A stretch of DNA of 64,000 nucleotides from Tamarix chinensis (Eukaryota > Streptophyta > Magnoliopsida > Caryophyllales > Tamaricaceae): positions 50,033,138 through 50,097,137 of the forward strand of contig CM060177.1 in assembly GCA_030549775.1 (NCBI GenBank), in the 5' to 3' direction. The notes under the pieces were generated by a model. The model did not search any database. It was given only the letters and a program-made list of their open reading frames with translations, and was not told the origin of the DNA. Position numbers and translations under genes: made by a program. Positions 27,659-63,546 of the stretch are shown piece by piece; the stretch's first letter is position 1; every line of letters begins with the position of its first letter.

Positions 27659-28097
27659 GGTCCACCAGATATAATAGTGGTCCAGGAGCGTGTTGTCCTA
27701 GTATGTGATTATGAGTACCGGTCCACCGGTTATAATAGTGGTCCAGGAGCGTGTTGCCCTGGTGTGTGATTATGAGTACCGGTCCACCGGTTATAATAGT
27801 GGCCAGGAGCGTTGTGCCCTGGATGATGATTTTATATGTATTCCGGTCCACCGGCAATAATAGTGGGGGTCCCGAGCTCAATAAAACCAGTTTTGTATGT
27901 GAATATGATTATGGAAAAATACTAATCACTTATAGTGGAACACCATGTGAGTCGGGGCTAGACCAGTCCACCGGCAAATAATAGTGGTCAGGTGCGTTCT
28001 GCCCTGTGTGTTTATCTTCCGGTCCATCGGCAATAATAGTGGTCAGAGGCGTTTTGCCCTGAGTGTATACTTTCCGGTCCACCGGCTATAATAGTGG
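27659..28097 (+). repeat. Two box clusters of LTR-g (4 + 3 copies)
   Basis: Boxes lie at 27659-27680, 27720-27741, 27781-27802, 27845-27866, 27965-27987, 28021-28042 and 28076-28097. The spacers carry hairpins with CCAGG/CCTGG or CAGG/CCTG arms. The cluster-ending boxes run into GGGGGTCCC and GGGGTTCTC. The intercluster segment contains GGAACACCATGTGAGTCGG. Confidence 0.9.
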
Positions 28098-28613
28098 GGT
28101 TCTCGCACTCACATGGCTTAAATGATGACGGAATAATGGCTTAAGGCCGAATATATTGATCTTACACTATGACATAGCTTAAGGCCCAAATTATCGATCG
28201 TGATTTATGAATTATTATACATGTTATTGTTATGCATGTACCTCTCATTATTTATGTGTGTAGTTTGCATTATGTGCCGTATGCGGGCCTGTCTTTAAGT
28301 GTGGTATTAAAGGGTTACTCAGTACCGTAGTACTAAAGGGATTCCCTTTATGGGCCCCCTGCCTATTCAATGGGCAGTGCCCTTGCAGGTATTTTCAGGT
28401 GCTACTCAAGTGGGCTACGGGAAAAGAGAGTAAGGAGTTATCCGGTATCGTTAGGCCTTTTTTTCTTTCCCATTTAAATTCTTGGTTTCAAATGTATATG
28501 TTATTACTGTAACCACCGGTGGTGGATTTTATTCTGGTAAACGATTTGAAGCGCTACTCTGATTTGTGTGTCTTAAATTTCTTTCAAATTGTATTTCATT
28601 TTCTTAGCCTTAG

Positions 28614-28659
28614 CACTTGGTACTGGAACAGTATGAGTGAACCGGTCTGGTACTAAGTG
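28614..28659 (+). other. Terminal LTR hairpin of LTR-g
   Basis: Arms CACTTGGTAC and GTACTAAGTG, ten pairs with one G-U on the sense strand, followed by TGGCGGTAAT. It lies 100 nt before the LTR end. Confidence 0.75.
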
Positions 28660-28759
28660 TGGCGGTAATACTCCCAAAGTTCACCTTTTATTAATCTGCT
28701 TCCGCAATTATCTTTTAATAAAACGAAATTTTTCAGTAGTGAATTTTGGGGGTGTTACA

Positions 28760-28881
28760 CAAATCCTTTATCTATAGGCTCTTGTATTTGTTTTTGTAAT
28801 TCCTTAGTTTCTTCTAGGTTACATCTATAAGCAGGTTTATTTGGAAGAGTTATTCCAGGAATAAGATCAATATCATGTTCT
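28760..28881 (-). pseudogene. Fragment of the minus-strand gypsy pol between two insertions
   Basis: The minus strand encodes HDIDLIPGITLPNKPAYRCN and then EETKELQKQIQEPIDKGFV, the conserved sequence just upstream of the RT domain in Ty3/gypsy polyproteins. It joins the RT at 23367 across solo LTR-g and the protease-RT linker at 34277 across the LINE. The 17-bp LINE target duplication (28865-28881) lies within it. Confidence 0.9.
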
Positions 28882-29236
28882 GGAATTGTTGGTAAATATA
28901 TATCAAAAATGATTACTGTACAAGTTCATAGGGCATACCCTGGATAGTAGGGCCCTACAAAACAAAAATCTAGTTACAAGGCACCTTAGGTAACAATAGC
29001 ACCCTAGGGGTACAACCTGACCATGTCTTACATACCTTCCCTAAGGTCCCTGTCAAAAAATAGGGCACTATACACAAATTTCTGGACTTGTACAATAATA
29101 CTCTTAGTGTCTAGAGGTTTACATTCAAACAAGGCATAGTTCCTACCCTTCCAGATTAAATATACTCCTGCTGCCACTGCCAGGGCTCTAGCCCTCCATA
29201 TGGAGTGGTGCTTGGAGGAGTTTCTTTGTAGGATTC

Positions 29237-32200
29237 TTATGGCACTAAAGAGGTTATTTGATCCTCTATTGATGCCAAGCCACTACCTGAGAGGTTGCCA
29301 AATACTCTTGGACATTTCACAATCAAAAAACAAATGTTGATGTGATTCCATAACACTGTACACAGCAGGCACACCTTGGGCTCATCCACAAACCTCATTC
29401 TATCTCTGGTATAGAGTCTTGTGCAGAGACTTAGCCACAGCAAAAATGAGTATCTCTTGATTTTGTTCAGTACCGACACACCCACTTTGTGAGGCTTCCA
29501 CTTTGGTCCTTTAGTTCTGAAAAAATTGTAGGCTAGGTGGGTTGAGTATCTTCCATTCACAATCCAGGATTTGACAAGTTCCAGTGCCTGACCCCCTGTG
29601 CCTTGAGCTGCAATCAATGCCTCAAACAACTTGCTCAGCTTTTTCACAAAATATGAGGTTTCATTCCTTGGTGTAAAGGACTCCAGGTTTTTCTGCCTTG
29701 CAGGTAATGTGTGTGTATCCATTTGGTCCACAGGGTCTCCTTTTCATCCTACAGAAACCAAATGTATTTACACAAAAATGCAGAGTTCCATGCCAGATGA
29801 GAGGTTATCACCCCAAGGCCTCCCTCCCCTTTTGGGAGGCAAACCCTTGACCAAGCCACAGGAGGTGGTTTACCCTGCCATAAAAATTTCCTGCAGAGGG
29901 TAATGATTCTGTTAAGCACAATGCCAGGAATTGCAAAGATTGACAGCCAAAATCCAACCATGCCCTGGATGATGGAGTTGATGACTTCAAGCCTGCCTGC
30001 AAAAGAGAGGGAATTAGCCCTCCATAACTTCAACTGATCACAGAGGCTGTTGGTGAACTGCTCATAATCTATAGCTCTGAGTTTGCAGGGATTTAAGGGG
30101 ACTCCCAGGTATCTAAATGGGAATTCCCCTCTAGGCATCCTGGTTAGGGCCAAAATCTGCTAGTGGAGTTGAGGCTTTATTCTAGCCAAAAACACCTGTG
30201 ATTTCTGAGGGTTCACTACAAGCCCTGAACACCTGTTGAAGGACTCCAGCCCTTGGAGCATGACCTGCACAGAGGGGATATCACCTCGACTGAAAAGGAT
30301 GAGATCATCAGCGAATGCCAAATGGAGGAGGTTCAAATGTTTGCATTTGGGATGATAAGAAAAGATCTGCTGCTGTGCTATCTGCTTGAGCTGTCTGCTA
30401 AAGTACTCCATACACAAGACAAAAAGGTAAGGAGACATAGGGTCACCCTGTCTAAGCCCTCTAGCTCCTTTAAAAAAGCCAAATATGTGCCCATTCAGCT
30501 TTAGGGAGAAGGAAGTGGTTGAAACACATTCCATAATCAAGTCTGTGATCTCAGGAGGGAAATTAAAGGCCTACAGGATGCTGCTCAGAAAAGACCAGGA
30601 GAGGGTATCATAGGCCTTCCTAAGGTCTATCTTGATCATGCATTTAGAAGAAGTCCTCTTCCTGCTATATTCCTTCAAAATTTCCTGCACCAATAGCACA
30701 TTTTCAGTCATCAATCTGCCTTTGACAAAAGCACCTTGCTCAGGGCTTATAAGGGGGTCCAGGCATTCAGCAATCCTGTTAGCAAGCAACTTTGCAATCA
30801 CTTTGTACAGGGTGTTACAGCAGGCAATAGGCCTGAAGTCAAAGACACTAGAAGCTTGCTGTGTTTTAGGGATCAACACCAAGACAGCATGGTTTACCCT
30901 CTTTAACAATCTTCTATTGCTGAACACCTCCAGGACAGCATTGCAAAAATCATCCCCAACAATCTCCCATGCCTCTTGGAAGAACTTGGCAGAGTATCCA
31001 TCAGGGCCAGGGGCTTTATGGTCCCCTAGAGAGAACACAATTTTCTTGATTTCAGCTTTAGTCACAGGTCTCTTCATAGCAGACTGTTGTTCTGTACTGA
31101 GGGTGTGGCCTCTAGTGATCACAGAACTGTCAAAACCAGCTGTGGATCTCTGAGTTCCAAGCAAATTCTTATAAAAATCCAGGAACTCCTCTTGCATTTC
31201 TTCCTCAGACAGGGTCACAGAGCCATCCCTCTTGGAGATCTGCACTGTTTTGTTCTTATGAGCCCTAGCTTTCAGCATGCTGAAGAAAAAGTGAGAATTT
31301 TGGTCCATATAGAACAAGAATTTGTTCCTATTAATTTGGGAGACAAAACTAGCAGCAGCAGCTTTGAGGAATTTTGCTTTTTTCTGTAAGCCTGCAAGGG
31401 TCTCAAGTCCCTGTAGGGTATGGTTCTTCATAAACTCCTCCTGAGCTGCTTTTAGTTGTGTATCTGCGAGGTTAGCTCGAGCCACAATATGAGAAAAATC
31501 AAAATGGTTAAGCTTTCTCAGATCTTTCTTAAGCAAGGAGAGTTTGTTGCAGAGATTAAATTGATGGGAGCCACAAAGAGAAAATCTCCAATTTCTCAAA
31601 ACCATTTCTTTGAACCTGGGGTGGGCGCACCACATGTTGAAGAACTGGAAGGACTTGAGTCTATGGAGTGGTCTACCTATCTCCAGAATACAGGGGGAAT
31701 GGTCAGAGGAAGTACCAGGTGGGAGGAAGTGAGCTGAGACATCAATTCCAGCAGCAAAACCCTCAGAGTTCATCATAGCTCTGTCTATCTTGCTCTTAAC
31801 ATTATTTCCCACAAAGGTGTACCAGCAACCTGAGGAGGGTATATCAAACAGTTGGGCTACAAGGCAGCAGGATTTAAAGTCTGCTGTCTCATAGTCAGTC
31901 ACAGGTCTGATCCCACATCTGTCAACAGAATTAAGGGGGCAATTGAAATCCCCTCCAACTATCCAAGTTCCCTTTACAATGGTAGCCATTCTAATGAGAG
32001 TTTCCCAGAGGGTCTTCCTGTCACTGATGCTGTACAGTCCATACACAGCAGTGACTGTAAAGCTCAACTTGGTAGTGATGTCCACCACAGAGCCAGTTAG
32101 AGTTTGTTGGGAGATCTCCTTCAACTGAAAATGGATAACATCAGGGTTCCATATCATCAAAATTCTACCATTAGGGTGGTTGCAAAAATTATCAAAATGT

Positions 32201-32367
32201 CTCCAGCCTTTGAAGTGAGAGTCCTTCATAAGCTGCACTTTCTTCTCATCTAACTTGGATTCCAGGATACAAACTAAGGAGCATTCCTGGTCCTTATATA
32301 CCTTAGACAAAGCTTTTTGTTTCAGGGGAGAGCTTAATCCCCTTACATTCCAAAATAGCACCTTCAT
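29237..32367 (-). pseudogene. LINE ORF2: endonuclease / reverse transcriptase (broken)
   Basis: In order: an EEP-type endonuclease from the start (VLFWNVRGLSSPLKQKAL, IVGGDFNCPL, SSDHSPCIL), which would nick the target; reverse transcriptase (DHKAPGPDGYSAKFFQEAW, LIPKT, DFRPIACCNTLYKVIAKLL, EQGAFVKGR, IKIDLRKAYDTLSW, then GLRQGDPMSPYLFVLCME and FADDLILFSRG); and a C-terminal zinc-finger-like region (RFVDEPKVCLLC). In-frame stops lie at 30571-30573 (before the RT palm), 30160-30162 and about 29749. A frameshift near 29730 separates the C-terminus. The FADD catalytic motif itself is kept. The first ATG overlaps the ORF1 stop as ATGA. Confidence 0.92.
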
Positions 32368-34076
32368 GAGATCTTTGCAGATCTAGCATATTTTTTTGAG
32401 GGATCCTTGAAAATGTTTTTCAACACAGGTTTCTTCTTCTTCCTTTTGGCTGCCTTGGATACCACCTGTTGCCAGCCTGCCACCTCCACTGAGTCATGTT
32501 CCTCTTGGGCTTCAGTAATGGAAATCTGTGTCTTTCGACTGAGTGGTGCAGTTGTCTTAGCCTGGAGTGGGGGATCCTGCCCATGGTTGACTCCCTTCTC
32601 TGCATGCTTGCATACTTCTTGTGTCTGTGATTCTGGAACCCCCTCTGCAGTGGAATTAGGTGCATCCCCATTCAAGTTCTGATCAGCATTTCTGTGACTG
32701 CTTTCAGCAACAGCATGAGTGGCAGTATCTGACTTAGGATTTAGCTTCCCTTTCTTTTTCAGATCAAGTCCCTTGGGATCTTTAGACTTTGCTGGTACCT
32801 TCTGTTGTTGATCTTCAACACCCAGGGCTTGTTTCCCTTTGGATACATGATTGACAATGTTTTCCTTCTTTTTCTGAGATAGGGGGCAATTAGATTCCAG
32901 GTGTCCCAGACTACCACAAAGATCACAGACTAGAGGTAGGTCCTCATACTCAATCACTTGGGTGTATTCTTCATCCTCCCCCTTCACTTTAATAGCAGTA
33001 GGAAGTTTGCTTTTGAGATCCACCTCCACTAACACTCTGCCATATTCAATCTTAGATTTTAGCAGAGTGAAGTCATCAATCAAGATGGGTCTGCCAATAT
33101 AGGAAGCAATTTCACTAATTGCTCCACAGTTCCACAGTTCCATGGGGAGGCTCACTAGCCTAACCCAAACAGGAACCTTAGTAATTTCTTCCTTACCAAA
33201 TGAGAAGAGTTTGGGAACTTCTTTCAGCACAAACACCTTCCCTTTGATTATATAAGGACCCCCAGCAATAGCTTGCTCTTTCTGGGCATGATCTTCAAAT
33301 TTCAGAATCACCCACCCTGAGCTGTGGATGATATATCTAAAAGGTTGTCTCATTACATGCTTAGCAATGCCCAGGTTATACTTATCTGGGTTGGCTCCTA
33401 CAAAACATCCTAACAAGCAGGCACCCCAATATTCCTCCACAGGGTGGATATTGTTCTTTGACAGGCATACCACATTCCCTTTGGGGGGGACAAAGTCACA
33501 TTTCTTAGCTGAAATCTTGGGGAAGAGGTCAGCATAGGATTTCTGTTGTGATGGAGGTACCTGTGGGGTAGACTCCTTACATGGGATCTCCTCCTGCACC
33601 AAAGGAGAGTGAGCTGTGTCCACAGAGGTGTCCTTGACCCCTCTAGCATCATCATCATTTTCAGAATTAGACAACAAATCGGGCATAGAAGACAAAGCAG
33701 CAAGTTTTGCTGAGCTAGAGACCTGGGCAGTGTAATTCAACACTTCCTGTTCCAAGTGAACATTAGCAGGCATAGATTTGGGCTGAGTTTTGGGAATGGG
33801 AACACCCCCAAGCACCTGGTCCTTCATCAACACTTGCTCCTCAGGTAAGGAGCCATGCATAGCTTCATTGGACGAGCAGGGCAGAGGAGTTTGAGTTTCA
33901 GGAGTACTGTTCACAATGTCATTCTGTAGATCACTCAAGACTGCCCTTGGGGATTCTTCTGAGGAAGAAGAGCATGCAGAGGCAGACCTAGTGGCAATCT
34001 CCTTGGGACTATGCGGTGCACAGATAGGAGAATTAGCCATGGCTCGAGCTCGAGTCACTCTCCTTTTGTTCCCCAT
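32364..34076 (-). CDS. LINE ORF1 protein: DUF4283 plus CCHC zinc knuckle (570 aa)
   Basis: An intact 570-codon frame. Residues about 200-350 match the DUF4283 pattern of plant L1 ORF1 proteins (VGANPDKYNLGIAKHVM, GGPYIIKGKVFVLKEVP, VPVWVRLVSLPMELW, IASYIGRPILIDDFT). Near residue 390 follows one CCHC knuckle, CDLCGSLGHLESNC. Both ends are polar and low complexity; the C-terminus is Lys-rich. The family binds LINE RNA in the ribonucleoprotein. Its stop shares ATGA with the ORF2 start. The intact frame beside a broken ORF2 suggests a fairly recent insertion. Confidence 0.9.
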   Translation of the reverse strand: MGNKRRVTRARAMANSPICAPHSPKEIATRSASACSSSSEESPRAVLSDLQNDIVNSTPETQTPLPCSSNEAMHGSLPEEQVLMKDQVLGGVPIPKTQPKSMPANVHLEQEVLNYTAQVSSSAKLAALSSMPDLLSNSENDDDARGVKDTSVDTAHSPLVQEEIPCKESTPQVPPSQQKSYADLFPKISAKKCDFVPPKGNVVCLSKNNIHPVEEYWGACLLGCFVGANPDKYNLGIAKHVMRQPFRYIIHSSGWVILKFEDHAQKEQAIAGGPYIIKGKVFVLKEVPKLFSFGKEEITKVPVWVRLVSLPMELWNCGAISEIASYIGRPILIDDFTLLKSKIEYGRVLVEVDLKSKLPTAIKVKGEDEEYTQVIEYEDLPLVCDLCGSLGHLESNCPLSQKKKENIVNHVSKGKQALGVEDQQQKVPAKSKDPKGLDLKKKGKLNPKSDTATHAVAESSHRNADQNLNGDAPNSTAEGVPESQTQEVCKHAEKGVNHGQDPPLQAKTTAPLSRKTQISITEAQEEHDSVEVAGWQQVVSKAAKRKKKKPVLKNIFKDPSKKYARSAKIS

Positions 34077-38829: not shown

Positions 38830-39190
38830 TTGGTAGGGGGTATGTGCATATTTTTGAGGTATAGGATTATACCATGGCAGGTTGACATGGCATCAGTGTC
38901 CAACTTGGGTGGGTGAGGTATCCTAATACAAACCCCTTGGCACTTTATATTGTCTATTTTTTAGGTAGGTGTGGTATCTTAACCTTTTAGCCTTCACTAT
39001 GGAGACATTCAAAGTGTGGTGAGTGAGGTATCCTAGTACAAGCCCATTTAGTTTACTTCTACCACACATGGTGGGTGTGGTATCCTAATTTGTGGTAGGT
39101 GTACTCAATGTGTGGTGGGTGTGGTATCCCAATGAAAGCCCCTTCAATGTATCCTGAACTTGTGTGATGGGTATGGTATCACATTGTGAT
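38830..39190 (+). repeat. GGTGGGTGTGGTATCC repeats in LTR-h
   Basis: At least six degenerate copies of GTGGGTGnGGTATCCTAAT separated by 40-60 bp. They sit where the CCACCGG boxes lie in the other LTRs; homology to the box is not evident. Confidence 0.65.
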
Positions 39191-39836
39191 TATTTTTACA
39201 ATGATGAATTTTGATTATGGTGGAGAATTGGGTGTGGCAAACGAACTACCTTATTAACTGGAAATTGTGTGGTCACTAAAGGAGGAATTCTCATATGGTT
39301 TATATTATATAAATTGTATGTATTACTATATTTCTATACTTCTTTGATTTCCATGCAAGCATGCCATGTTGTACTTGAGTTATATTGATATGATATCAAC
39401 ATGCTATTATGTGACTTCAATGTGTTATATGAGCCTCAACATGTTTTAGGTAGTATGTTTTACCAGTACTTCATAGTACTGATATTGTACTTGTGTAGTC
39501 ATTGTGATGATCCAGCTTCTGGTCCGGGGAGCAAAGGACAATTTGTGGGGTTATAACTCCCAGTTAGAGAATGCCGAGAGTGATGACATGGGCCATTAGC
39601 GGGCTATTGTTTGGGTTTGGAGGTTTATAATTGCGCTTAAGAGTTAGACTAACTGGTTATTAGTATTTTACCCACTTTTTTTGATGATTTTGTATTTTTG
39701 GTTATTTAAACTCTTGGCTCGATTTCTTTTATTTGGTTTCATAAAACTATCAAATTCATTCTATCTATAATATCATTGTAGTCTTTATTATCATATATTG
39801 TCACATGAATTTTGTTTCTTATTCCATTTTACCTTA

Positions 39837-39883
39837 CATCAGTTATGGGTTAGGTGATGATCACACCTCTCTCATAGTTGATG
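39837..39883 (+). other. Terminal LTR hairpin of LTR-h
   Basis: Arms CATCAGTTATG and CATAGTTGATG, eleven pairs including two adjacent G-U pairs on the sense strand, followed by TGGTGGTAACA. It lies 90 nt before the LTR end. Confidence 0.7.
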
Positions 39884-39973
39884 TGGTGGTAACATTCCTC
39901 AGTTTGTTTTTCAAATGCTTCTGCATTGTCTTAAAAATGATTTTTTTTGGTTTAATAAATTGAGGGTGTTACA

Positions 39974-47664: not shown

Positions 47665-47695
<31 letters not shown>

Positions 47696-47890
47696 CATTA
47701 TTATTATTAAGCATTATTATTACTAACATTACCATTAGTGTTATTACTATTATTGTTATTAGTATTAATATTAATATTAATATTATGATGGTTATTACTA
47801 TTAATAGTATTATTAGTATGATTATTATTACTATTATTATTGTTTTTATTATTATTATCATTATCGTTACTGTTGCTATTCTTATGGCTA

Positions 47891-47928
<38 letters not shown>

Positions 47929-48900: not shown

Positions 48901-49168
48901 TATTACTGGTAATCATTATTAATGTTGTTAAAACCCTCACCTTAGCATTTGGATTGCTAAAACCTACTTAATTAGTGATAATCCGTATAAGCTATCGTAA
49001 GAGTAGTAATAACCAAACCCTTTTTATTTATAAACCCCATTATTAATAGTAGCCTTGGTATTAGGCCATGATAGGGGTAAGATGGGAATTTTGATAATTC
49101 TGGTAGAGGGAGATTAACCCCAAGTATTCCCTCTTATAGGTAAACCGGGTCAAACCACCGGAGGTATA

Positions 49169-49205: not shown

Positions 49206-50092
49206 ACGTAACTAAGGCTGCTTGTGTGTATTACATGTTTTATTTGCCTTGGATGCCTCGTGTGTTTTATACGCTATATTACGTGTATGTTATCTGTTCT
49301 ACTGTGTAGCGCAACATGGAACCGAGGTACGTTTCCGTACTCTGGCTTATATGTACTAGTATGGCATGATACAAGGATGATATGGTGTGATGTGACATGC
49401 ACGTTAGAATGTTTTGATGAGGAGTTGTGGAGTGGGGGCTTTGAAAGAGAAAAATAAGCAAATAGGAAAACCAAAGGGAAGTATGTTGGCTAACGCAGGT
49501 AAGAATGACCTAGGCAAGTTATGATTAATGAATGAATGGGAAAAGGGGGGGATTTAATAAATAGGAGAGTAGAAGAAAGTAAAGTTACTTGGGGAACACT
49601 AGGGTTTGGGATGGAAACCCTAATTTGAGGAGGTAGAGAAGAAAAGGAAAATAATAAGAATTTATGGGGAAGAGTGAAGTATGTGGGGAATTTGAGTTGA
49701 GGGTCATGATTTGGGTTCCCGATGCGAGAAGTATATTAAATACAAAGGGTGTTAGTGGCTTAATATAAGCGTAGGAGACAGCTCGGTGACCTAAACCGAG
49801 TGAGGATATAGATAAGATTGGATGTGTGACCTGTGTCCTATGTGCTGTGGATGCCTTATATGAATGCTGTGTTGTATTCTAAATGTCGTTATCTTACTTG
49901 TTTCGTGGGTAATGTGGCTTGGAAACAAGACGTGTACTTATATTTTATTAACATGTGATAGTACGATTATGTCGTCAGTTTTGATGTGATGTGTTGAGAA
50001 CTCTGGCCATGCATGACAAAGATATGCCCTCGAATAAGATACTTTAAGACACTAACGACTTACAGAGAAAGATGTTGAGCTGAACCCAGACC

Positions 50093-50409
50093 GGTCCACC
50101 GGCTATAATAGTGGCAGGGTATTTTACCCTCGCGACCGTTCCACCGGCTATAATAGTGGCAGGGCATAAGCCCTCGCGACCGTTCCACCGGCTATAATAG
50201 TGGGGGATTTCGTGCTCAACAAACTAAACGTAAAGGTGATAAGCCATGGGAAAGATATAAATGGTTACAGTGGAATACCTTGTGAGTCGGAGCCAGACCG
50301 GTCCACCGGCTATAATAGTGGCAGGGTATCTTACCCTCGCGACCGTTCCACCGGCTATAATAGTGGCAGGGCATGGCCCTCGCGACCGTTCCACCGGCTA
50401 TAATAGTGG
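50093..50409 (+). repeat. Two box clusters of LTR-i (3 + 3 copies)
   Basis: Boxes at 50093-50114, 50138-50159, 50182-50203, 50300-50321, 50345-50366 and 50388-50409 are nearly identical. Spacers are AGGGTATTTTACCCT, AGGGCATAAGCCCT, AGGGTATCTTACCCT and AGGGCATGGCCCT, each a perfect hairpin. The stem switches between GGGTA/TACCC and GGGC/GCCC. Confidence 0.92.
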
Positions 50410-50970
50410 GGTTCCCGCACTCACAGGGTCTGGACAAGATGATGATCGATTATATTCAGAGACCTGATAAAAGAAAAGTGACGTTTGGTCTGTAATCTGT
50501 GTGGTTTATGTGTTATTGCATTCGATCTATGTATCTATGCTATGTCTTCTATGTTATGTATCTTTGTGTGTGGGCCTTGGCACCTACGCCCTTACTCAGT
50601 ACTGGACCCGTACTGATGCTACACTGGTTGAATGGGTCCTGTGATGATCCACCAATGGTGGGGAGCAGACCTTTGATGCAGGTTTTGATCGGTTGCTATT
50701 GGGGTGGAAGGTTGACTTGAGGGAGTAAGTGGACCGGACATTTACCTTCGGAATTTGTTTTGTGTAATCGCATTCGTCTTGAAAGTCACAAGTGTTGTAC
50801 TTAAATCTTCAAGGGTTTTATCATACTTGTCATTCCGTTATTTTAAGTATTCTGATATATAGACCTTTTAAATTGTATTTCGGAATGTAACTTTTTACCT
50901 TCGCACTCTGATTTTGTAGAACCCGTGTTTTATGAATGATTTGCTCTGGTTTTATTCTTTCTAGCCTTAG

Positions 50971-51016
50971 CACTTAGTATCGGGTCGGTAGCTATGGATC
51001 GATCTGGTACTAAGTG
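50971..51016 (+). other. Terminal LTR hairpin of LTR-i
   Basis: Arms CACTTAGTA and TACTAAGTG, nine perfect pairs, followed by TGGCGGTAATA. It lies 100 nt before the LTR end. Confidence 0.75.
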
Positions 51017-51116
51017 TGGCGGTAATACCCCCGAGTTACGGTTTTTAATTCTCTTGCTTCCGCTAAAACTCTTGATTTAAACGAAATTTTTCAGTAGTAA
51101 ATTTGGGGGTGTTACA

Positions 51117-51694: not shown

Positions 51695-52109
51695 TGAAAT
51701 GCCCCGAAAATTTCATATTTTATAAACTACATTTAAAGGATATTTATTATAATAATTATTTAAATAAATTATTTTTAAATTGAATTAATTAGGGTAAATC
51801 AAGAAGACAGTTATAAGTATTTTTATTAGAAGAAAATTTGGGTATTTTAGCTAATTAAGCATTTTATTTCAAAAATAAATTAAATAAATTATTTTATTTA
51901 AAATAAGAAGAAAATAAAAATAGTTTCAAATTAATATTAATTTTATAAATAAATAATTTAATTGGAGAAAATTTGGGTGTTTTGCTAATTAAAAAGGAAT
52001 TTGTGGAAAACCTTTTAAAAATCCTAATTTAGCCTAAAAAGGGGATTTTAAATATTAATTTATTTAAATATTATCATTTTTAATAACTCAAATATCCTAA
52101 TTAATTTAA

Positions 52110-53330
52110 TTAATTCAAACCACTATTTTTCTTTTCCTTTTCTCTTTTCCTTTCTTTTCTTTCTTTTTCTTTCTTTTTCTTCTTTTCCTTTTTCCTTCTT
52201 TTCTTCTTTTTTCTTCTTCTTCTTTTCTTTTTCTTTTTTCTCCTCTCCGAACTGGGCCAGCCCAGCGGCCCAGTTCCTCTTTTCCCTTCCTTTCTTCCTT
52301 CGGCCCAGCCCGTCCGCGCGCGCCGTTGCCTCCTTCTCCCGCCTCCAGCGCTGCGTTTTGTCCATCGTTTTACTAAAACTCTCGTCGTGTTATTTAATGA
52401 GCCAGCCCGCGCGTCCTCCTTCGCCCGTCCCCCTCTACGCCGCGTTTTGACTCCACTTCCACCTAAACCCGTCGTTTCATTAATGCCTACCTCCCTCGCG
52501 CTCGACCGGCCCGGTCTGCCCCTTCTTTCTTTTCTTTCCTCGCGAACCGCCCGGCCCAGCCTCTTTCTTCTTCCCCTTCGCGCCTGCCAGCCCCCGACGC
52601 CGTCGAACCTGCAACTTCCCCGCCGAAAATGGCGGCATCGGCTACGAGCAGTCTTACCGGCCGATTCACCCACCCTTCTCTTCCTATTAGCTCGCACATC
52701 ATCTTGGAATAGTCAATTAACCTTCACTCTCTCTCATTCTCTCTCTCTGGCTTCTCGAATCTTCGACCCGACCCAAGCAACCGCCGGTCGATTTATGACA
52801 CCGGCCACCAAAACCCTATCACCCAAACCCATCCTTCCGACCCCCAAAACCCTAATAACCCATCTAAACTCTTTAAATAGCCTAATGGTGGGTGTTTTCG
52901 AGACTTCTTCCTTCCGAAACCCCAAGTCAGAATCGCCCAGCCACCTCCCCCATCAGACGCCATTATCTCCTTCCTCGGCCAACTTCAACATCTCTTCTTG
53001 CTACCAATCTCTTCCCTGAAATTTCCTCTAGCTAACTAAGCCATTCAAATCCTTCGATTCTTCTTGAATGAGCTGCCATAACCATGCGAAGTTGGTTAGT
53101 TGCTTCGACAGAAAATTTCACCCCGAGACCTTAAACCACCTTCCACCACCACATGCGCCGCTTCTAACACCTTCCAAACCAACCATTAAATCCTACTAAT
53201 TATCCTCTACAGCCCCATATAATTATTTTAATTTTTCTTCCTCTCCATCACCCATTTTCCTAATTTTTGGCCCTCTTAGATCACTTTTCCGGCCACCTCC
53301 GGGAACCACCGCCGGCCACCTTCATCCTCC
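52110..53330 (+). other. Pyrimidine-rich leader block of LTR-j (5' copy)
   Basis: C/T-rich to GC-rich segment. A 210-codon frame (52387-53019) is Pro/Leu/Ser-rich. In the 3' copy the equivalent frame is broken into two by single-base length changes, which argues against a conserved protein. TTTAAATAGCC (52872-52880) is a weak TATA-like candidate. Confidence 0.7.
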
Positions 53331-54539
53331 AACTCAAGGTGAAACCCTAAAACTTTTAAATACTTAATTTCGATTTATTGATAATTATTATGCTTTTATT
53401 CTAATTTTTAATGCTAATTCAAGTTTAATTATTATTATTATAATTATTATTATTGTTGTTATCAACTGTATTTTAATTTCTAAATTTGGTTTACAGGTCT
53501 GGGAGTATTATTGAGTGAGATAAATTATTATTCTCGAATTTTTCCTATTTAATGTAATTATTACATGTTTAATAATATTATTAATAATATAATTAATATT
53601 ATTATTGTTAGTATAATTAGTTATTTGATACTGCAATTATTTCAGGAGAAGTAGAAACCTAAAATTTTAATTAAGTCTCGTATCTTTGCCTTTTTATTAT
53701 TATTTTTAGCATTTTTAACATTATTACTAATTATCTTATTATTATTAACCATATTAACTTTATATAATAAGTATATGTATAATATTAATATCTTTTTACA
53801 TTTCAAATAGTATTATCATTAAATGGGGAGGTTTCAAAATCCACTTTGTAAATTTAAGGCTTAGATTATTATTGTTATTAAGTTTTCTATTAATATTACT
53901 ACTATTAGTAATAATCTGTTATTATTAAAATTATTATTATAATAAATATTATTATTATTATTACCTTTACTAAATTTATTTCGGTAAAGGGTAGAAACCC
54001 TTATATCACCACCTTTTTACTTTAAATATAATAGTATGTATTAATGTTTTAGTGGTTTTGGGCATAATTAATTAAGAATCAAGACTTAAGATAAATTAGA
54101 AACTAATAGTAGTATAGGAAGGAAGCTAATCCTAGTATTTCTTCCCATAGTAGGTGAGCCCAGTCAAATCCCTCAAGTGGAATAGGAGCGTGCTCCAAGA
54201 CCGTGTCGTTTTAGGTAAGGAGTGCTAAGGTCTTTTATGTGCTTATTTGTATTATGTGCTTCGCATGCTATGTATCATGTGTTGTTATTATTAATTATTT
54301 CGTATGTGGTATGAGATGGAGTTAAAGTATGTTTTTGTATGGCATGTGTATTATATGTATATGACAATATGTGTTGTGACTCTATAAGACATATATGAGA
54401 GGACTTTGATGTGATTTGTGCGGGAGAAAGGATGAAAAAGGAGGATGGGGAAAGAATTTGATTAAGGGAAGTGAGTTAACCTAATTTTATGGTTTTATAA
54501 GGATTAATCTAATGTATGATTTTATGTGTGAAAGAGCAG

Positions 54540-54960
54540 AATTTATGGTTCGTTGGGAGAATCTAATTTAGGATGTTATTTGGGAGACGGTAATTTATGA
54601 TGTTATCGAATTTATGGTGTGTTTGGGAGAATCTAATTTATGGTGTTAATTGGGAGAATCTAATTTATGATGTTATATGGGATAATCGAATTTATAATTT
54701 GTTTGGGAGAATTTAGTTTATGATGTTATTTGGGAGAATGTAATTTATAATATTATATGGGAGAATTTAAGTTATGATTTGATTGGGAGAGTTAATTTAT
54801 AATTTGTTTGGGAGAATCTAATTCATGATGTTATTTGGGAAAATGTAATTTATGATATTATATGGTGGAATCTAATTTATGATTTGCTTGGGGGAATTCA
54901 ATTTATAGTTTTCCTTGGGAGATTCTAATTTATAATTTTATGTGGAAGAATCTTTATGGC
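54540..54960 (+). repeat. GGGAGAATCTAATTTATGATGTTATTT array in LTR-j (5' copy)
   Basis: More than ten degenerate units of about 24-40 bp containing GGGAGAATNTAATTTATG. The 3' copy repeats the array at about 61465-61880. It occupies the place of the GGTAATTTT array of LTR-g. Confidence 0.85.
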
Positions 54961-55624
54961 TTGAATTTAGGGTTTGGTATGGAAGAATCTTTATGGTTTG
55001 AATTTAGGGTTCAGTATGGGTGAATCTTTGGTTTTGGTTGGATTGAATTTATGGTTTTGTATGACGGAATCTAGGGTTTACCTGGTGGTATTAATGGATG
55101 TATGTTAGTATTAGGGTTTGTATGATGATATTAAGGTTTGTATGGTGGTAATTATAGTTGTATGGAGGTATTAGGATTTACATGGTGATATTGATGGTTG
55201 AATGGTGGTATTAGGGTTTGCATGGTTGAATTTAGGGTTTCACGTGGAATTTTAGGATTTGCATGAAAACGGTTCAAGGTTTGCATGGGGAGATTAATGT
55301 TTGCATGGAAGATAAATTTACGTGTGAAAAGTTGATTTGGGATGTAAGGGAGGAAGTAGAAGAGTTATTTGGGTGTTTGAATATTTTGGGTGAAAAATAA
55401 TACGTAGGACATTATAAGGGTATGGAGGAGACTGAATTATGATTTGTTGTGGTTAATTGAGGTATATGGTGGCTGATTAGGGTTTTTGGTGTTATCATGT
55501 GTATATGGTGATTAAAGTGTAATTGTGATGTGTGGTGATTTATGCATGTTTGGTAAAAGCCTTTGAATAAGATACCTAAAACATTAATCACGTAAAGAGG
55601 AAGATGTTGAGCCGGGCCCAGACC

Positions 55625-55946
55625 GATCCACCGGCATAATAGTGGCCAGGTACTGCGGTAACCTGGAGATCGATCCACCGGCTTAATAGTGGTAGGGTAT
55701 GTTACCCTAGTGACCGATCCACCGGCAATAATAGTGGGGATCCCGAGCTCAACGAACCAAACTATACATGTTGATAATAAGTGGGAAGACATTATCTACT
55801 TACAGTGGAACACCGTGCGAGAAGGGGCCAGACCGATCCACCGGCTATAATAGTGGCAGGGTATGTTACCCTCGCGACCGATCCACCGGCTAAAATAGTG
55901 GCAGGGTATGTTACCCTTGCGACCGATCCACCGGCTAAAATAGTGG
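55625..55946 (+). repeat. Two box clusters of LTR-j, 5' copy (3 + 3 copies)
   Basis: Boxes use GATCCACCGGnnnnAATAGTGG. Spacer hairpins are CCAGG-TAC/GTA-CCTGG (first spacer) and AGGGTATGTTACCCT (the others). The final boxes run into GGGGATCCC and GGGGTTCCC. The intercluster segment contains GTGGAACACCGTGCGAG. Confidence 0.9.
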
Positions 55947-56478
55947 GGTTCCCGTACTCGTATGGACTTGATAAAAAGTATGGTGTGAAATGAATTCTAA
56001 TAATAGATTAATGAAATGATTAATCCAGTCTACAATCGGGCCTTATACTCTTACTTGGATGGTTGTATGTATTTATGTGATCATATTGGTCTTATGCATT
56101 TATAAGCATTCCCTTCTATGTTCTGCATGATTTATGTGTCGGTGTGTTGGCCTTAGTGATCAAGTCTCCTTACTCAGTACTGGACCCTACTGATACTACA
56201 TTGATTGATGGGTCCTGTGATGATCCACCAATGGTGGGGAGCAGACCTCTTGTGCAGGTTTAAGATCAGAGACTGTTTTGGGGTGGCAGGCCTGACTTGA
56301 GTGAGTAGGCAATCCGGCATTTGACCCATCGGGTTTTATCTTATTTAAATGTATTTCTATTTGTAAGTTACAAGTGTTTATAAACGTTTATGCGTACTCT
56401 GATTTTGTTGTAAGATCTTTTGAATTCTTTTATGAATGGTTAATTTGAATTTAACGTAAAACTTTTCTTTAGCCTTAG

Positions 56479-56524
56479 CACTTGGTACTGGAACGGTCGG
56501 AGAGAACTGGTCTAGTACTAAGTG
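56479..56524 (+). other. Terminal LTR hairpin of LTR-j, 5' copy
   Basis: Arms CACTTGGTACT and AGTACTAAGTG, eleven pairs including one G-U on the sense strand, followed by TGGCGGTAACA. It lies 97 nt before the LTR end. Confidence 0.75.
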
Positions 56525-56621
56525 TGGCGGTAACATTCCCAGAATTCACAGGTTTTAAGTGTTTCTATCTTAATTGCTTCTGTTTTCAAAAAAAAAAATT
56601 AGTGAATTTTGGGGTGTTACA

Positions 56622-56910
56622 AGTTGGTATCAGAGCAGGTTTCGACCATGCTCTTCCGTGTTCTTTAAAATTTTTAAATTGATACCACAGGATGGTATCG
56701 AAGTTGATTTCAACCAAGCTCCTTCATTTTTAAATTTTTCTCTAAGCTGATACCACAAGTTGGTATCAGAGTGGTTGGTCTTTCGGCCACGCTCGTTTTC
56801 GGAAATAAATTTGGTTTTCGGACTTTGTATTTGATTTTGAAGTGTGTTTTGACCGCTCCTCTATTTGTTTTAAACTTTTTAAGCTGATACCACAAAGTGG
56901 TATCAGAGCT
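56622..56910 (+). repeat. Four tandem PBS-like units in the inner element
   Basis: AGTTGGTATCAGAGC (56622) is the PBS proper. PBS-like GATGGTATCGAAG (56691), AGTTGGTATCAGAGT (56759) and AGTGGTATCAGAGC (56896) follow. The last three each lie in a palindrome with GATACCAC a few bases upstream (56681-56699, 56748-56768, 56884-56906). Unit three and its downstream CTTTCGGCCACGCTCG match the post-PBS leader of the outer element. Confidence 0.8.
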
Positions 56911-58620
56911 TTTGGTTGTTGAGAATTGGGTTTTGGTTAGAGATTCGGTTCTCACGATCCTAAATGTTTTAACTGAAAATGTATTTACCTTGTTTCAAGT
57001 AAATTTTAAAATCCGGATTAGCTTGTGAGGATTGTACGATGGGGTAGCATAAGTGACCTTCTGTTTTACTGCCGTGATTGTGGTTTTGTAATTAGTTTAT
57101 TCTCAAGGGGGTAGTAACCCCACTAGATTAACCCTAGTCTTGTAGGTTTTACGGATTGATAACCTTAGTGTGGACCTTGCCGGAATAGATATGATATGAT
57201 ATAAATTGTAATATATATTTTTTTAGAGTTGTGTACTCTTTAAAACTTTCGTTCCTTTATTTTGTGTGAACTTCACGTTATAATTTTTTGTTGTTATTCT
57301 CTTGTAAGATTTTATTTTAAAGAATAGTATTTTCGTAACTTGTTTTGACTTTAAGTATGTACTTCTTTCTTATTTGAATTCCATTGTATTTGATCTGCTA
57401 AGCATTGATTCTCCTCCTTTTATTTTGCTTCCTATGCCTTGTTTGTTTCAACTTTGCTTGGTTTAGTTTTGTAAAACATCGTTTTACTGTTCTTCGGATT
57501 TACTTTTAACCTATTTATTGTGGTTAATGCTTTATTCAATCGTTTTGACAAGTTTTCGCTACTTAGATTTTCCCTTAATTTCGGGGACGAAGTTCCTTTT
57601 TAAGGGGGTAATGATGTAATACCCTGTATTTTTAAAATCCAAATTTATTAAGTTTAATGATTTTATTAATGTAATTTGATGTATATAATTAATTATCTTA
57701 ATTTCGATTTGTCCTATGGATTTATCGACGATTCAAATTCATAGTTAAATTTAGTTAAATTCTTATGAGTTCGATTTTTTGGTTAATAATATATATTCCC
57801 GTTCTTTCTCGTATTTTCATATTTTAGATTTGTTATTTTTTTATTATTATTATAACTTTGTCATGTGATTACGACAATATTTTGAAGTTATATTTTGTTG
57901 ACAAAATTCATTATTTAAATTATAGAATTCCTATTGAATAGTTAAATTTATTGTAATGATTTTATTAGTAGAAAATATTTTCGACTCTAAATTATTCGTT
58001 TCAATTGTTAATATTTTTGGGAAGTTTTTAATTTAGAAGACGTATTCAGGAATTTCTTTCCAAAATTATCTTTATTTTGTTGTATGCTTTTGATTTACAG
58101 GAAATGACTAAATTGGGCTCGAGGTGCTAGAGTTCAACTTAAATATTTTACTACATGCTTTAAATAATTTTCCTTAGTTCTTATAATATATTTCCAGAAA
58201 TAATACATATTTTTTTTTATGTTCATCGGTTATTCCTTCCAAGAGTGTTTCCAAAATTTTTATATAACTCTTTTATTAATTCTGAGCCTTCGGATCTTTT
58301 CAAAATAGATTTTCGATAAATAAATTTTTGATTAAATTCTCTCAATATTAATATTTAATATTTAGTATTTAAATTGAACTTATACCCAGGTACAACAACC
58401 CATAGTTCGTCTCTAAGGGGTAGTTTTTTTTTAAGTGTTGTTTTTATATAGTGTCCCTATTTTCGTGGTTTTAAATTTTCTTTAGTAAGTTTATTCCTAA
58501 GGGGTAGTTTATATTGGTATTAGCGTTAGTTGGTTTTCTATACACTTAGAGCATTTCGACCCTAACCCTAGGCGCTTCCGGAGACTTCGGGGGCGAAGTC
58601 TATTTTTAAGGGGGTAGTGA
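56911..58620 (+). other. Non-coding internal region of the inner element with duplicated polypurine/LTR-head signals
   Basis: AT-rich, with no frame longer than a few dozen codons. CGGGGACGAAGTTCC..TTTTTAAGGGGGTAATGA (57578-57614) is a polypurine tract followed by TGTAATACCCTG at 57615, an LTR head of another family. A second GGGGGCGAAGTC..TTTTTAAGGGGGTAGTGA (58588-58620) precedes the true 3' LTR at 58621. The segment 57615-58590 therefore looks like a captured LTR 5' portion. Confidence 0.7.
58608..58617 (+). promoter_or_regulatory. Polypurine tract of the inner element
   Basis: AAGGGGGTAG, immediately before the 3' LTR start at 58621; primes plus-strand synthesis in this element class. Confidence 0.8.
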
Positions 58621-61600
58621 TGAAATGCCCCGAAAATTTCATATTTTATAAACTACATTTAAAGGATATTTATTATAATAATTATTTAAATAAATTATTT
58701 TTAAATTGAATTAATTAGGGTAAATCAAGAAGACAGTTATAAGTATTTTTATTAGAAGAAAATTTGGGTATTTTAGCTAATTAAGCATTTTATTTCAAAA
58801 ATAAATTAAATAAATTATTTATTTAAAATAAGAAGAAAATAAAAATAGTTTCAAATTAATATTAATTTTATAAATAAATAATTTAATTGGAGAAAATTTG
58901 GGTGTTTTGCTAATTAAAAAGGAATTTGTGGAAAACCTTTTAAAAATCCTAATTTAGCCTAAAAAGGGGATTTTAAATATTAATTTATTTAAATATTATC
59001 ATTTTTAATAACTCAAATATCCTAATTAATTTAATTAATTCAAACCACTATTTTTCTTTTCCTTTTTCTCTTTTCCTTTCTTTTCTTTCTTTTTCTTTCT
59101 TTTTCTTCTTTTCCTTTTTCCTTCTTTTCTTCTTTTTTTCTTCTTCTTCTTTTCTTTTTCTTTTTTCTCCTCTCCGAACTGGGCCAGCCCAGCGGCCCAG
59201 TTCCTCTTTTCCCTTCCTTTCTTCCTTCGGCCCAGCCCGTCCGCGCGCCGTTGCCTCCTTCTCCCGCCTCCAGCGCTGCGTTTTGTCCATCGTTTTACTA
59301 AAACTCGTCGTGTTATTTAATGAGCCAGCCCGCGCGTCCTCCTTCGCCCGTCCCCCTCTACGCCGCGTTTTGACTCCACTTCCACCTAAACCCGTCGTTT
59401 CATTAATGCCTACCTCCCTCGCGCTCGACCGGCCCGGTCTGCCCCTTTCTTTCTTTTCTTTCCTCGCGAACCGCCCGGCCCAGCCTCTTTCTTCTTCCCC
59501 TTCGCGCCTGCCAGCCCCCGACGCCGTCGAACCTGCAACTTCCCCGCCGAAAATGGCGGCATCGGCTACGAGCAGTCTTACCGGCCGATTCACCCACCCT
59601 TCTCTTCCTATTAGCTCGCACATCATCTTGGAATAGTCAATTAACCTTCACTCTCTCTCATTCTCTCTCTCTGGCTTCTCGAATCTTCGACCCGACCCAA
59701 GCAACCGCCGGTCGATTTATGACACCGGCCACCAAAACCCTATCACCCAAACCCATCCTTCCGACCCCCAAAACCCTAATAACCCATCTAAACTCTTTAA
59801 ATAGCCTAATGGTGGGTGTTTTCGAGACTTCTTCCTTCCGAAACCCCAAGTCAGAATCGCCCAGCCACCTCCCCATCAGACGCCATTATCTCCTTCCTCG
59901 GCCAACTTCAACATCTCTTCTTGCTACCAATCTCTTCCCTGAAATTTCCTCTAGCTAACTAAGCCATTCAAATCCTTCGATTCTTCTTGAATGAGCTGCC
60001 ATAACCATGCGAAGTTGGTTAGTTGCTTCGACAGAAAATTTCACCCCGAGACCTTAAACCACCTTCCACCACCACATGCGCCGCTTCTAACACCTTCCAA
60101 ACCAACCATTAAATCCTACTAATTATCCTCTACAGCCCCATATAATTATTTTAATTTTTCTTCCTCTCCATCACCCATTTTCCTAATTTTTGGCCCTCTT
60201 AGATCACTTTTCCGGCCACCTCCGGGAACCACCGCCGGTGCCACCTTCATCCTCCAACTCAAGGTGAAACCCTAAAACTTTTAAATACTTAATTTCGATT
60301 TATTGATAATTATTATGCTTTTATTCTAATTTTTAATGCTAATTCAAGTTTAATTATTATTATTATAATTATTATTATTGTTGTTATCAACTGTATTTTA
60401 ATTTCTAAATTTGGTTTACAGGTCTGGGAGTATTATTGAGTGAGATAAATTATTATTCTCGAATTTTTCCTATTTAATGTAATTATTACATGTTTAATAA
60501 TATTATTAATAATATAATTAATATTATTATTGTTAGTATAATTAGTTATTTGATACTGCAATTATTTCAGGAGAAGTAGAAACCTAAAATTTTAATTAAG
60601 TCTCGTATCTTTGCCTTTTTATTATTATTTTTAGCATTTTTAACATTATTACTAATTATCTTATTATTATTAACCATATTAACTTTATATAATAAGTATA
60701 TGTATAATATTAATATCTTTTTACATTTCAAATAGTATTATCATTAAATGGGGAGGTTTCAAAATCCACTTTGTAAATTTAAGGCTTAGATTATTATTGT
60801 TATTAAGTTTTCTATTAATATTACTACTATTAGTAATAATCTGTTATTATTAAAATTTATATTAATAAATATTATTATTATTATTACCTTTACTAAATTT
60901 ATTTCGGTAAAGGGTAGAAACCCTTATATCACCTTTTTACTTTAAATTATAATAGTATGTATTAATGTTTTAGTGGTTTTGGGCATAATTAATTAAGAAT
61001 CAAGACTTAAGATAAATTAGAAACTAATAGTAGTATAGGAAGGAAGCTAATCCTAGTATTTCTTCCCCATAGTAGGTGAGCCCAGTCAAATCCCTCAAGT
61101 GGAATAGGAGCGTGCTCCAAGACCGGTGTCGTTTTAGGTAAGGAGTGCTAAGGTCTTTATGTGCTTATTTGTATTATGTGCTTCGCATGCTATGTATCAT
61201 GTGTTGTTATTATTAATTATTTCGTATGTGGTATGAGATGGAGTTAAAGTATGTTTTTGTATGGCATGTGTATTATATGTATATGACAATATGTGTTGTG
61301 ACTCTATAAGACATATATGAGAGGACTTTGATGTGATTTGTGCGGGAGAAAGGATGAAAAAGGAGGATGGGGAAAGAATTTGATTAAGGGAAGTGAGTTA
61401 ACCTAATTTTATGGTTTTATAAGGATTAATCTAATGTATGATTTTATGTGTGAAAGAGCAGAATTTATGGTTCGTTGGGAGAATCTAATTTAGGATGTTA
61501 TTTGGGAGACGGTAATTTATGATGTTATCGAATTTATGGTGTGTTTGGGAGAATCTAATTTATGGTGTTAATTGGGAGAATCTAATTTATGATGTTATAT

Positions 61601-63546
61601 GGGATAATCGAATTTATAATTTGTTTGGGAGAATTTAGTTTATGATGTTATTTGGGAGAATGTAATTTATAATATTATATGGGAGAATTTAAGTTATGAT
61701 TTGATTGGGAGAGTTAATTTATAATTTGTTTGGGAGAATCTAATTCATGATGTTATTTGGGAAAATGTAATTTATGATATTATATGGTGGAATCTAATTT
61801 ATGATTTGCTTGGGGGAATTCAATTTATAGTTTTCCTTGGGAGATTCTAATTTATAATTTTATGTGGAAGAATCTTTATGGCTTGAATTTAGGGTTTGGT
61901 ATGGAAGAATCTTTATGGTTTGAATTTAGGGTTCAGTATGGGTGAATCTTTGGTTTTGGTTGGATTGAATTTATGGTTTTGTATGACGGAATCTAGGGTT
62001 TACCTGGTGGTATTAATGGATGTATGTTAGTATTAGGGTTTGTATGATGATATTAAGGTTTGTATGGTGGTAATTATAGTTGTATGGAGGTATTAGGATT
62101 TACATGGTGATATTGATGGTTGAATGGTGGTATTAGGGTTTGCATGGTTGAATTTAGGGTTTCACGTGGAATTTTAGGATTTGCATGAAAACGGTTCAAG
62201 GTTTGCATGGGGAGATTAATGTTTGCATGGAAGATAAATTTACGTGTGAAAAGTTGATTTGGGATGTAAGGGAGGAAGTAGAAGAGTTATTTGGGTGTTT
62301 GAATATTTTGGGTGAAAAATAATACGTAGGACATTATAAGGGTATGGAGGAGACTGAATTATGATTTGTTGTGGTTAATTGAGGTATATGGTGGCTGATT
62401 AGGGTTTTGGTGTTATCATGTGTATATGGTGATTAAAGTGTAATTGTGATGTGTGGTGATTTATGCATGTTTGGTAAAAGCCTTTGAATAAGATACCTAA
62501 AACATTAATCACGTAAAGAGGAAGATGTTGAGCCGGGCCCAGACCGATCCACCGGCATAATAGTGGCCAGGTACTGCGGTAACCTGGAGATCGATCCACC
62601 GGCTTAATAGTGGTAGGGTATGTTACCCTAGTGACCGATCCACCGGCAATAATAGTGGGGGATCCCGAGCTCAACGAACCAAACTATACATGTTGATAAT
62701 AAGTGGGAAGACATTATCTACTTACAGTGGAACACCGTGCGAGAAGGGGCCAGACCGATCCACCGGCTATAATAGTGGCAGGGTATGTTACCCTCGCGAC
62801 CGATCCACCGGCTAAAATAGTGGCAGGGTATGTTACCCTTGCGACCGATCCACCGGCTAAAATAGTGGGGTTCCCGTACTCGTATGGACTTGATAAAAAG
62901 TATGGTGTGAAATGAATTCTAATAATAGATTAATGAAATGATTAATCCAGTCTACAATCGGGCCTTATACTCTTACTTGGATGGTTGTATGTATTTATGT
63001 GATCATATTGGTCTTATGCATTTATAAGCATTCCCTTCTATGTTCTGCATGATTTATGTGTCGGTGTGTTGGCCTTAGTGATCAAGTCTCCTTACTCAGT
63101 ACTGGACCCGTACTGATACTACATTGATTGATGGGTCCTGTGATGATCCACCAATGGTGGGGAGCAGACCTCTTGTGCAGGTTTAAGATCAGAGACTGTT
63201 TTGGGGTGGCAGGCCTGACTTGAGTGAGTAGGCAATCCGGCATTTGACCCATCGGGTTTTATCTTATTTAAATGTATTTCTATTTGTAAGTTACAAGTGT
63301 TTATAAACGTTTATGCGTACTCTGATTTTGTTGTAAGATCTTTTGAATTCTTTTATGAATGGTTAATTTGAATTTAACGTAAAACTTTTCTTTAGCCTTA
63401 GCACTTGGTACTGGAACGGTCGGAGAGAACTGGTCTAGTACTAAGTGTGGCGGTAACATTCCCAGAATTCACAGGTTTTAAGTGTTTCTATCTTAATTGC
63501 TTCTGTTTTCAAAAAAAAAAAAATTAGTGAATTTTGGGGTGTTACA
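58621..63546 (+). repeat. LTR-j, 3' copy (4926 bp)
   Basis: Same layout as the 5' copy: TTTAAATAG at 59796, palindrome at 61107-61118 with donor-like GT at 61138, box clusters 62545-62868, CCACC/GGTGG hairpin 63148-63160, terminal hairpin 63402-63447. Differences from the 5' copy that I noticed are one- to three-base length changes in homopolymers and short repeats. Confidence 0.95.
62545..62868 (+). repeat. Two box clusters of LTR-j, 3' copy (3 + 3 copies)
   Basis: Same boxes and hairpins as 55625-55946, with one extra G after the third box. Confidence 0.9.

Follow-up and report, generated by a model that had tools for sequence, protein, structure and literature searches.

Several long terminal repeats (LTRs) in a 64,000-nucleotide stretch of the Tamarix chinensis genome (assembly GCA_030549775.1, contig CM060177.1, positions 50,033,138 to 50,097,137; hereafter the window) carry tandem copies of a 19-bp box separated by spacers that can fold into hairpins, and the locus raises the question of whether these arrays are kept as folded RNA, as DNA sites, or through mutation without selection. 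The sequences on the two sides of each box cluster are complementary to each other and form the arms of a long stem around it, here called P1; this stem is the main feature of the arrays, and was overlooked in an earlier note on this DNA, which had drawn attention to the spacer hairpins. From comparisons among the copies, we consider it fairly probable that related plant LTR retrotransposons of apparent Ty3/gypsy type form two tandem folded domains in their sense RNA, which would serve as a cis-acting signal.

Box arrays in the LTR families

The 19-bp box (CCACCGGCTATAATAGTGG) described in the earlier note is real: the whole window holds 24 matches at no more than three mismatches, all on the plus strand, compared with a mean of 0.03 in shuffled sequence, where 24 matches were reached in none of 100 shuffles. 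A pattern with a variable middle, CCACCGG(1-4)AATAGTGG, finds 26 error-free copies, those in LTR j included. The box copies sit in the 3' part of the LTRs of four families, designated a, g, h and i/j (a, g, i and j in the earlier note). Family a (1-1090) is cut by the window start and its first cluster is therefore partial, and the LTRs of families g and h end at 28759 and 51116, respectively. Because i and j are the two LTRs of a single insertion and are 99.45% identical, j adds no independent evidence and was left out of all independence tests. The proposal of four families with two clusters each is borne out, save that the first cluster of a is incomplete. A search of a viral contig collection with the box gave 0 matches, and a single-copy match in one Bacteroidales contig of a genome contig collection was taken as chance.

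The enclosing stem P1

P1 is composed of 8-10 plus 4 bp around a one-base bulge, and minimum-energy folds close at least its outer part in all nine full domains, j included. Its 5' arm lies within a segment with GGAACACCATGTGAG that had been described as constant but in fact differs between copies, and its other arm follows the last box. The arms are CCATGTAAG/CTTACATGG in the second domain of LTR a (a2, with other domains named likewise), CCATGTGAG/CTCACATGG in g2, CCGTGCGAG/CTCGTATGG in i2, TGTTGAGC-TGAA with TTCG-(T)-GCTCAACA in h1, and GTTGAGC-CGGG with CCCG-(A)-GCTCAAC in i1. Full domains are 148-262 nt long, domain 2 begins 56-60 nt after domain 1, and between its last base and the LTR end there are 643-762 nt.

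Covariation was assessed in an alignment of six domains (a2, g2, h2, i2, h1 and i1), leaving out g1 for its fourth box and j1 and j2 as near-duplicates. Two-sided changes occur in 8 of the 14 P1 pairs, and 91.7% of cells are paired. When P1 is taken together with three box hairpins (23 pairs), the observed values for pairing, two-sided changes and covariation score are each matched by none of 500 shuffles, and that for further pair types by eight of 500; all eight pairs with two-sided changes belong to P1, and sliding the structure by 1-3 columns leaves 0-1 such pairs. The arms also fit their own partners best: among the 5040 possible pairings of seven domains (g1 included) the native one is the unique best, still the best when G·T and A·C are treated alike, and ranks 1 of 24 and 1 of 6 within domain classes, the best values attainable. 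The bulge position is filled in seven of seven domains with a varying letter (A, T, A, T, C, C, T), with the caveats that the a2 bulge is opposite an unpaired T and that two adjacent pairs fail in i2.

Spacer hairpins

The spacers after non-final boxes measure 24-45 bp, rather than the 15-45 bp given in the earlier note, whose further description of them stands. Outside j, 15 of the 16 can be drawn as a hairpin with five or more base pairs directly after the box, all five stem types named earlier are found among them, and the first spacer of g1 (27681-27700) is the broken one, with 4 bp left. In dinucleotide shuffles 12 of the 16 are significant at p<0.05, those failing being a2-1 (0.146), g1-1 (0.129), h2-2 (0.265) and i2-1 (0.052). 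Both arms do change together: with arms swapped among the same 16 spacers, just 98 and 86 of 200,000 permutations in two runs paired as well as the native partners. The spacers of a and g have a bulge position that is occupied in eight of eight cases, by A in seven and T in one.

Two-sided changes of this kind could arise without selection, if template switching within hairpins during reverse transcription (quasipalindrome correction) altered both arms at once, and such a process would presumably yield them in any reverse-transcribed hairpin. It should also perfect the stems, yet the bulges are kept while their letters change, both in P1 and in the a and g spacers, and G·T pairs persist; the departures noted for a2 and i2 soften the argument from the bulges, and we regard a mutational origin as very unlikely.

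The box hairpin and the interior of P1

A further small hairpin of 3-5 bp can be drawn at each box, in which the four bases before the box pair with its CCGG around TCCA (CCGG-TCCA-CCGG). The first g box deviates (CCACCAG), and the four bases ahead of it read CTGG where CCGG is usual, so that both sides have changed; in the six-domain alignment the box hairpins have no two-sided pair. The innermost pair is lost to A·C in every one of the six i boxes and to T·C in four of the six from h. The sequence CGG-TCCA-CCG is whole in 10 of the 23 boxes outside j (four of four in a, four of seven in g, two of six in h, and none of six in i). Support for the box hairpin, and for the way the interior of P1 is laid out, is weak.

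Structures at the LTR 3' end

A second conserved structure, which we refer to as the U5 (unique 5' region) hairpin, is present near the LTR end in six families: a, g, h, i, e (minus strand) and l, the last two being families in which no box was found. It is bounded by CCTTAGC (or CCTTGC, CCTTAC) and TGG(C/T)(G/A)GTAA, and its 3' flank ends 77-89 nt before the LTR end. The arms are CACTTRGTAY with GTACTAAGTG in g, h and i, CATCTAACA with TGTTAGATG in a, and CATCAGTTATG with CATAGTTGATG in l. Over the six families 7 of 13 pairs have two-sided changes and 98.7% of cells are paired, and the native arms rank 1 of 720 when compared by energy and 4 of 720 under a neutral (Watson-Crick) score. A covariance model of the hairpin matches seven LTR ends at 67-83 bits, j included, six of which built the model and so match by construction; an additional match at 16332-16382 (14.8 bits, E 0.025) lies in purine-rich DNA without a visible LTR end and was taken as chance.

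A terminal hairpin ends at the LTR border and has 20 pairs, three of them two-sided, with 86.4% of cells paired and the native arms ranking 8 of 720. There is also a 3-bp outer helix, of which just 72.2% is paired and which has no two-sided change. For the LTR-end structure as a whole (36 pairs), shuffled alignments attain the values seen for pairing, two-sided changes and covariation score in 0 to 2 cases out of 500, and the covariation term from RNAalifold is -3.85. Conserved folding with covariation, as a packaging or leader signal would have, is found in P1, the spacers and the U5 hairpin, in small sets of sequences.

Other conserved segments lie in these LTRs. A block TTACTCAGTACTGGACCC...GGGTCCTGTGATGATCCACCAATGGTGGGGAGCAGACC is present in a (618-700), h (50593-50680), i (56171-56250) and j (63093-63175), and in a, h and i it folds GGACCC against GGGTCC; LTR l has a shorter related stretch, GTGATGATCCAGCTTCTGG..GGGGAGCA (39470-39560). 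Farther upstream there is a possible hairpin in LTR g (CCTTAGGG-gtcgcta-CCCTAAGG, 27250-27280) and in LTR e (CTTTAGGG-gttgcta-CCCTAAAG, 7640-7760, minus strand), which would constitute a further two-sided change between the two; the minimum-energy fold of the g stretch pairs differently.

RNA or DNA

The suggestion in the earlier note of selection on folded structure gains support, with the two-sided changes in P1 and the U5 hairpin being stronger evidence than the spacer arms. That note had allowed either RNA or cruciform DNA, and of these RNA is favored because G·T pairs exceed A·C and because bulge positions are kept; folding energy is neutral, and the box hairpin points the opposite way. 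With the two kinds given equal scores, the ratio of G·T to A·C is 56:10 in total (10:5 in P1, 26:3 in U5 and 20:2 in the terminal stem), where composition predicts 42.9:23.1 (p=3e-4, with related cells not independent). Hand registers count 7 G·T against a single A·C in P1, besides 3 other mismatches, and 3 G·T against 1 A·C in the spacers. It is likely, though not proven, that the domains act as sense-strand RNA structure.

Several results weigh against this reading. The sample is only seven independent full domains and six LTR ends. P1 on its own, in the automatic alignment, contributes a ratio of just 10:5, and when arms are mixed between families the G·T to A·C counts are 75:68 for P1, 132:33 for U5 and 113:31 for the terminal stem, so that much of the excess in the latter two reflects shared letters. 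Folding z scores for the seven domains range from -1.46 to -3.52 in the sense and from -0.32 to -4.71 in the antisense orientation, and since these ranges overlap the energy does not pick a strand; moreover, 20 control windows, with mean z of -0.33 and -0.37, have extremes of -3.26 and -4.14. Windows of 120 nt over the h and i arrays have z near zero, and one in the g array has -2.4 sense and -3.94 antisense. RNAalifold assigns the domains a covariation term of only -0.1 and draws a different interior, in which the GTGG of a box pairs with the CCAC of the next, a pairing that hardly varies. The number of further pair types at the LTR ends is reached in 96 of 500 shuffles, and in the hand register of 23 boxes the box hairpin has 3 G·T against 7 A·C, besides 4 other mismatches.

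The behavior of the box itself would fit a reading in which boxes and spacers are DNA-level palindromes, serving as tandem binding sites for host activators in the U3 (unique 3' region) part of the LTR with hairpins as a by-product of dyad symmetry. The box is conserved in its letters and not in pairing alone, its CGG-TCCA-CCG palindrome is whole in the copies counted above, and A·C is the commoner of the two mismatch types in its hairpin, ahead of G·T; passages of PMC2829016 also report Sirevirus LTR arrays with a CGG-CCG core upstream of TATA, and repeated motifs proposed as activator sites. Such sites do not predict a stem joining flanks 150-260 bp apart, the kept bulges, or the excess of G·T in P1, U5 and terminal stems, and we consider this account unlikely.

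A decayed LTR copy, k, with two clusters of degenerate boxes, has no excess folding (z -0.73 and +0.58 sense, +0.02 and -0.20 antisense); as a neutral comparison it is a single copy and AT-rich. The idea of analogous arrays in families e and l was rejected, since neither a 30-bp repeat in LTR e (7269-7354; z -0.22) nor any of three segments of LTR l within 38900-39400 (z -0.39, -1.02 and +0.01) surpasses shuffled sequence in folding.

The elements and their neighborhood

Element i/j is an LTR retrotransposon, with paired TG...CA LTRs, a target-site duplication and a primer-binding site (PBS). Its internal part (2 kb) contains no open reading frame (ORF) longer than 81 amino acids from ATG, GTG or TTG, and what the element keeps is thus likely to be cis-acting; both domains are kept. 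A gag-like frame lies on either side of the insertion, and element h therefore seems to have had its gag gene interrupted by it. The right-hand gag piece matches PF03732 Retrotrans_gag at 1e-12, and Ty3_capsid below its cut-off, and the left-hand piece gave no domain match. The Ty3/gypsy assignment is tentative, with one of the two h gag pieces pointing to it and no pol seen for these elements. The LTR ends and PBS would suit a Tekay/Del affiliation. Coordinates are collected in Table 1.

Table 1. Folded domains, U5 hairpins and related LTR features in the window
Feature	Position	Strand	Details
LTR a, end of domain 1	1..84	+	partial box 1-8, followed by spacer hairpin 9-26 and a box at 44-62; 5' part before window
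LTR a, domain 2	157..327	+	P1 arms 157-172, 312-327; boxes 183-201, 236-254, 290-308
LTR g, domain 1	27620..27884	+	P1 arms 27620-27632, 27871-27884; four boxes; three spacer hairpins, first broken
LTR g, domain 2	27943..28116	+	P1 arms 27943-27956, 28102-28116; three boxes
LTR h (i in the earlier note), domain 1	50073..50221	+	P1 arms 50073-50084, 50209-50221; three boxes
LTR h, domain 2	50278..50428	+	P1 arms 50278-50291, 50414-50428; three boxes
LTR i (5' LTR of i/j), domain 1	55605..55754	+	P1 arms 55605-55616, 55742-55754; three boxes
LTR i, domain 2	55813..55965	+	P1 arms 55813-55826, 55951-55965; three boxes
LTR j (3' LTR of i/j), both domains	62527..62887	+	domain 1 62527-62675, domain 2 62735-62887; not independent
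LTR a, U5 hairpin plus flanks	952..1013	+	
LTR g, U5 hairpin plus flanks	28608..28670	+	
LTR h, U5 hairpin plus flanks	50965..51027	+	
LTR i, U5 hairpin plus flanks	56473..56535	+	
LTR j, U5 hairpin plus flanks	63396..63458	+	covariance model match
LTR e, U5 hairpin plus flanks	6594..6655	-	family without box found
LTR l, U5 hairpin plus flanks	39831..39894	+	family without box found
5' LTR of element i/j	51695..56621	+	4927 bp, TG...CA; PBS TGGTATCAGAGC at 56625
3' LTR of element i/j	58621..63546	+	target-site duplication GTCGG 51690-51694 / 63547-63551
Decayed copy k	18290..18885	-	two clusters of degenerate boxes

The start of the i/j internal part (56622-56910) has several PBS-like copies, TGGTATCAGAGC/T at 56625, 56761 and 56898, the latter two preceded by CTGATACCAC, and each could fold into a hairpin hiding the PBS. 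Toward the other end (57100-58620) there seems to be more than one motif, AAGGGGGTAGT, resembling a polypurine tract (PPT), at about 57106 and 58608, and a third internal stretch resembles the one at about 58608. These can be likened to the multiple PPTs reported for Sireviruses in passages of PMC2829016.

Other long tandem-repeat arrays are located upstream of the domains, at 25588-26754 (about 29 bp), 47582-48930 (TAT-rich) and 54478-54953 (27 bp). A long interspersed nuclear element (LINE; 28760-34076, minus strand) includes a DUF4283 ORF (32364-34076) and an endonuclease-reverse transcriptase ORF (30571-32367), whose eight best-scoring relatives are 36-40% identical, the named ones being plant proteins.

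A proposed role in genomic RNA

In the arrangement that we favor, each domain of about 150-260 nt would consist of P1 enclosing alternating small hairpins, in the order box hairpin, AU-rich linker (the box middle) and spacer hairpin, within a region that is presumably transcribed. A transcription start upstream would make the two domains, together with the U5 hairpin, part of the 5' leader that precedes the PBS, and one downstream of these structures would place them in the U3 part at the 3' end of the RNA; they would lie within genomic RNA for either start position. The fold would most likely act there as a cis-acting signal for Gag recognition, packaging, dimerization or another leader function. 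Both the gag-bearing element h and i/j, apparently a non-coding element, would keep it, the latter in order to be copied in trans.

The domains could instead be mainly a substrate of host small-RNA silencing through microRNA-like processing, as discussed for maize Sirevirus palindromes, and passages of PMC10760457 report an excess of small RNAs at the clustered palindromes of those elements. Targeting by the host would presumably favor loss of the stems and not their compensatory upkeep, a point also made in PMC10760457, and we find this explanation quite improbable.

In plant LTR retrotransposons the signals for packaging are, to our knowledge, ill-defined, and how non-coding elements recruit the proteins of a partner is unclear; a co-varying domain present in both a gag-bearing and an apparently non-coding element is a direct candidate. 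It is conceivable, if doubtful, that the paired multi-hairpin domains represent a new class of RNA element in plant LTR leaders, a packaging or recognition signal common to autonomous elements and the non-autonomous ones they mobilize, whose fold would be kept while sequences turn over between families. The domain could in addition serve as a covariance-model probe for classifying fast-changing plant LTRs.

Comparison with known systems

A scan of the window with Rfam at the gathering threshold gave no family, hammerheads included, and at relaxed thresholds gave four weak matches, one of them at the LTR h end and the others at the LTR g end, with scores nowhere near that threshold (the best, MIR172-like at 28656-28766, scoring 23.1 bits against 70). 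Among the literature matches listed, judged by titles and the starts of abstracts and with many journals outside the coverage, none is a published description of these domains, and a 2025 paper on plant structured RNA (PMC12218528) contains no word beginning with retrotranspos, transpos, LTR or gypsy. The remark in the earlier note that no described LTR element with such an array was known calls for some qualification, in that Sirevirus LTR palindrome arrays are known (PMC2829016).

The Sirevirus arrays are among the closest known systems. As set out in passages of PMC2829016, the LTRs of these Ty1/copia elements have tandem palindromes with a CGG-CCG core and other bases that differ by family (e.g. 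Barbara, TCGGTCYCACCGA), proposed to be functional and described as DNA regulatory boxes and CpG islands; the word start 'compensat' is absent from the text of that paper. Structured regions of maize Copia elements have CACCGGACNNNGTCCGGTG in common, according to passages of PMC10760457. The arrays described here are alike in being many-copy tandem arrays in plant LTRs, with a CGG-CCG palindrome in part of the boxes, but differ in that box and spacer hairpins alternate in two domains, with a long stem that co-varies closing either one, that fewer than half of the boxes have the core whole, and that the sole gag match is of the Ty3 type. The GC content of the domains is 0.48-0.60 versus 0.34-0.35 upstream in the LTR, and the observed/expected CpG ratio is 0.74-1.05 versus 0.83-1.0.

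Retrozymes, as presented in parts of PMC4918200, are plant LTR elements with a ribozyme in the LTR, a Ty3/gypsy-like LTR 3' end and a tRNA-Met PBS. No ribozyme family was found by the Rfam scan at the gathering threshold, and with an LTR of 4.9 kb and an element of 11.9 kb, i/j is roughly ten times larger.

Long R (repeat) regions keep conserved stem-loops, as parts of PMC3601003 relate, and the R-U5 leaders of retroviruses and LTR elements resemble the present case in having folded RNA in an LTR-derived leader, a putative one here; in contrast, the structures reported here group several hairpins into domains arranged in tandem, and the plant element that holds them has LTRs of 4.9 kb.

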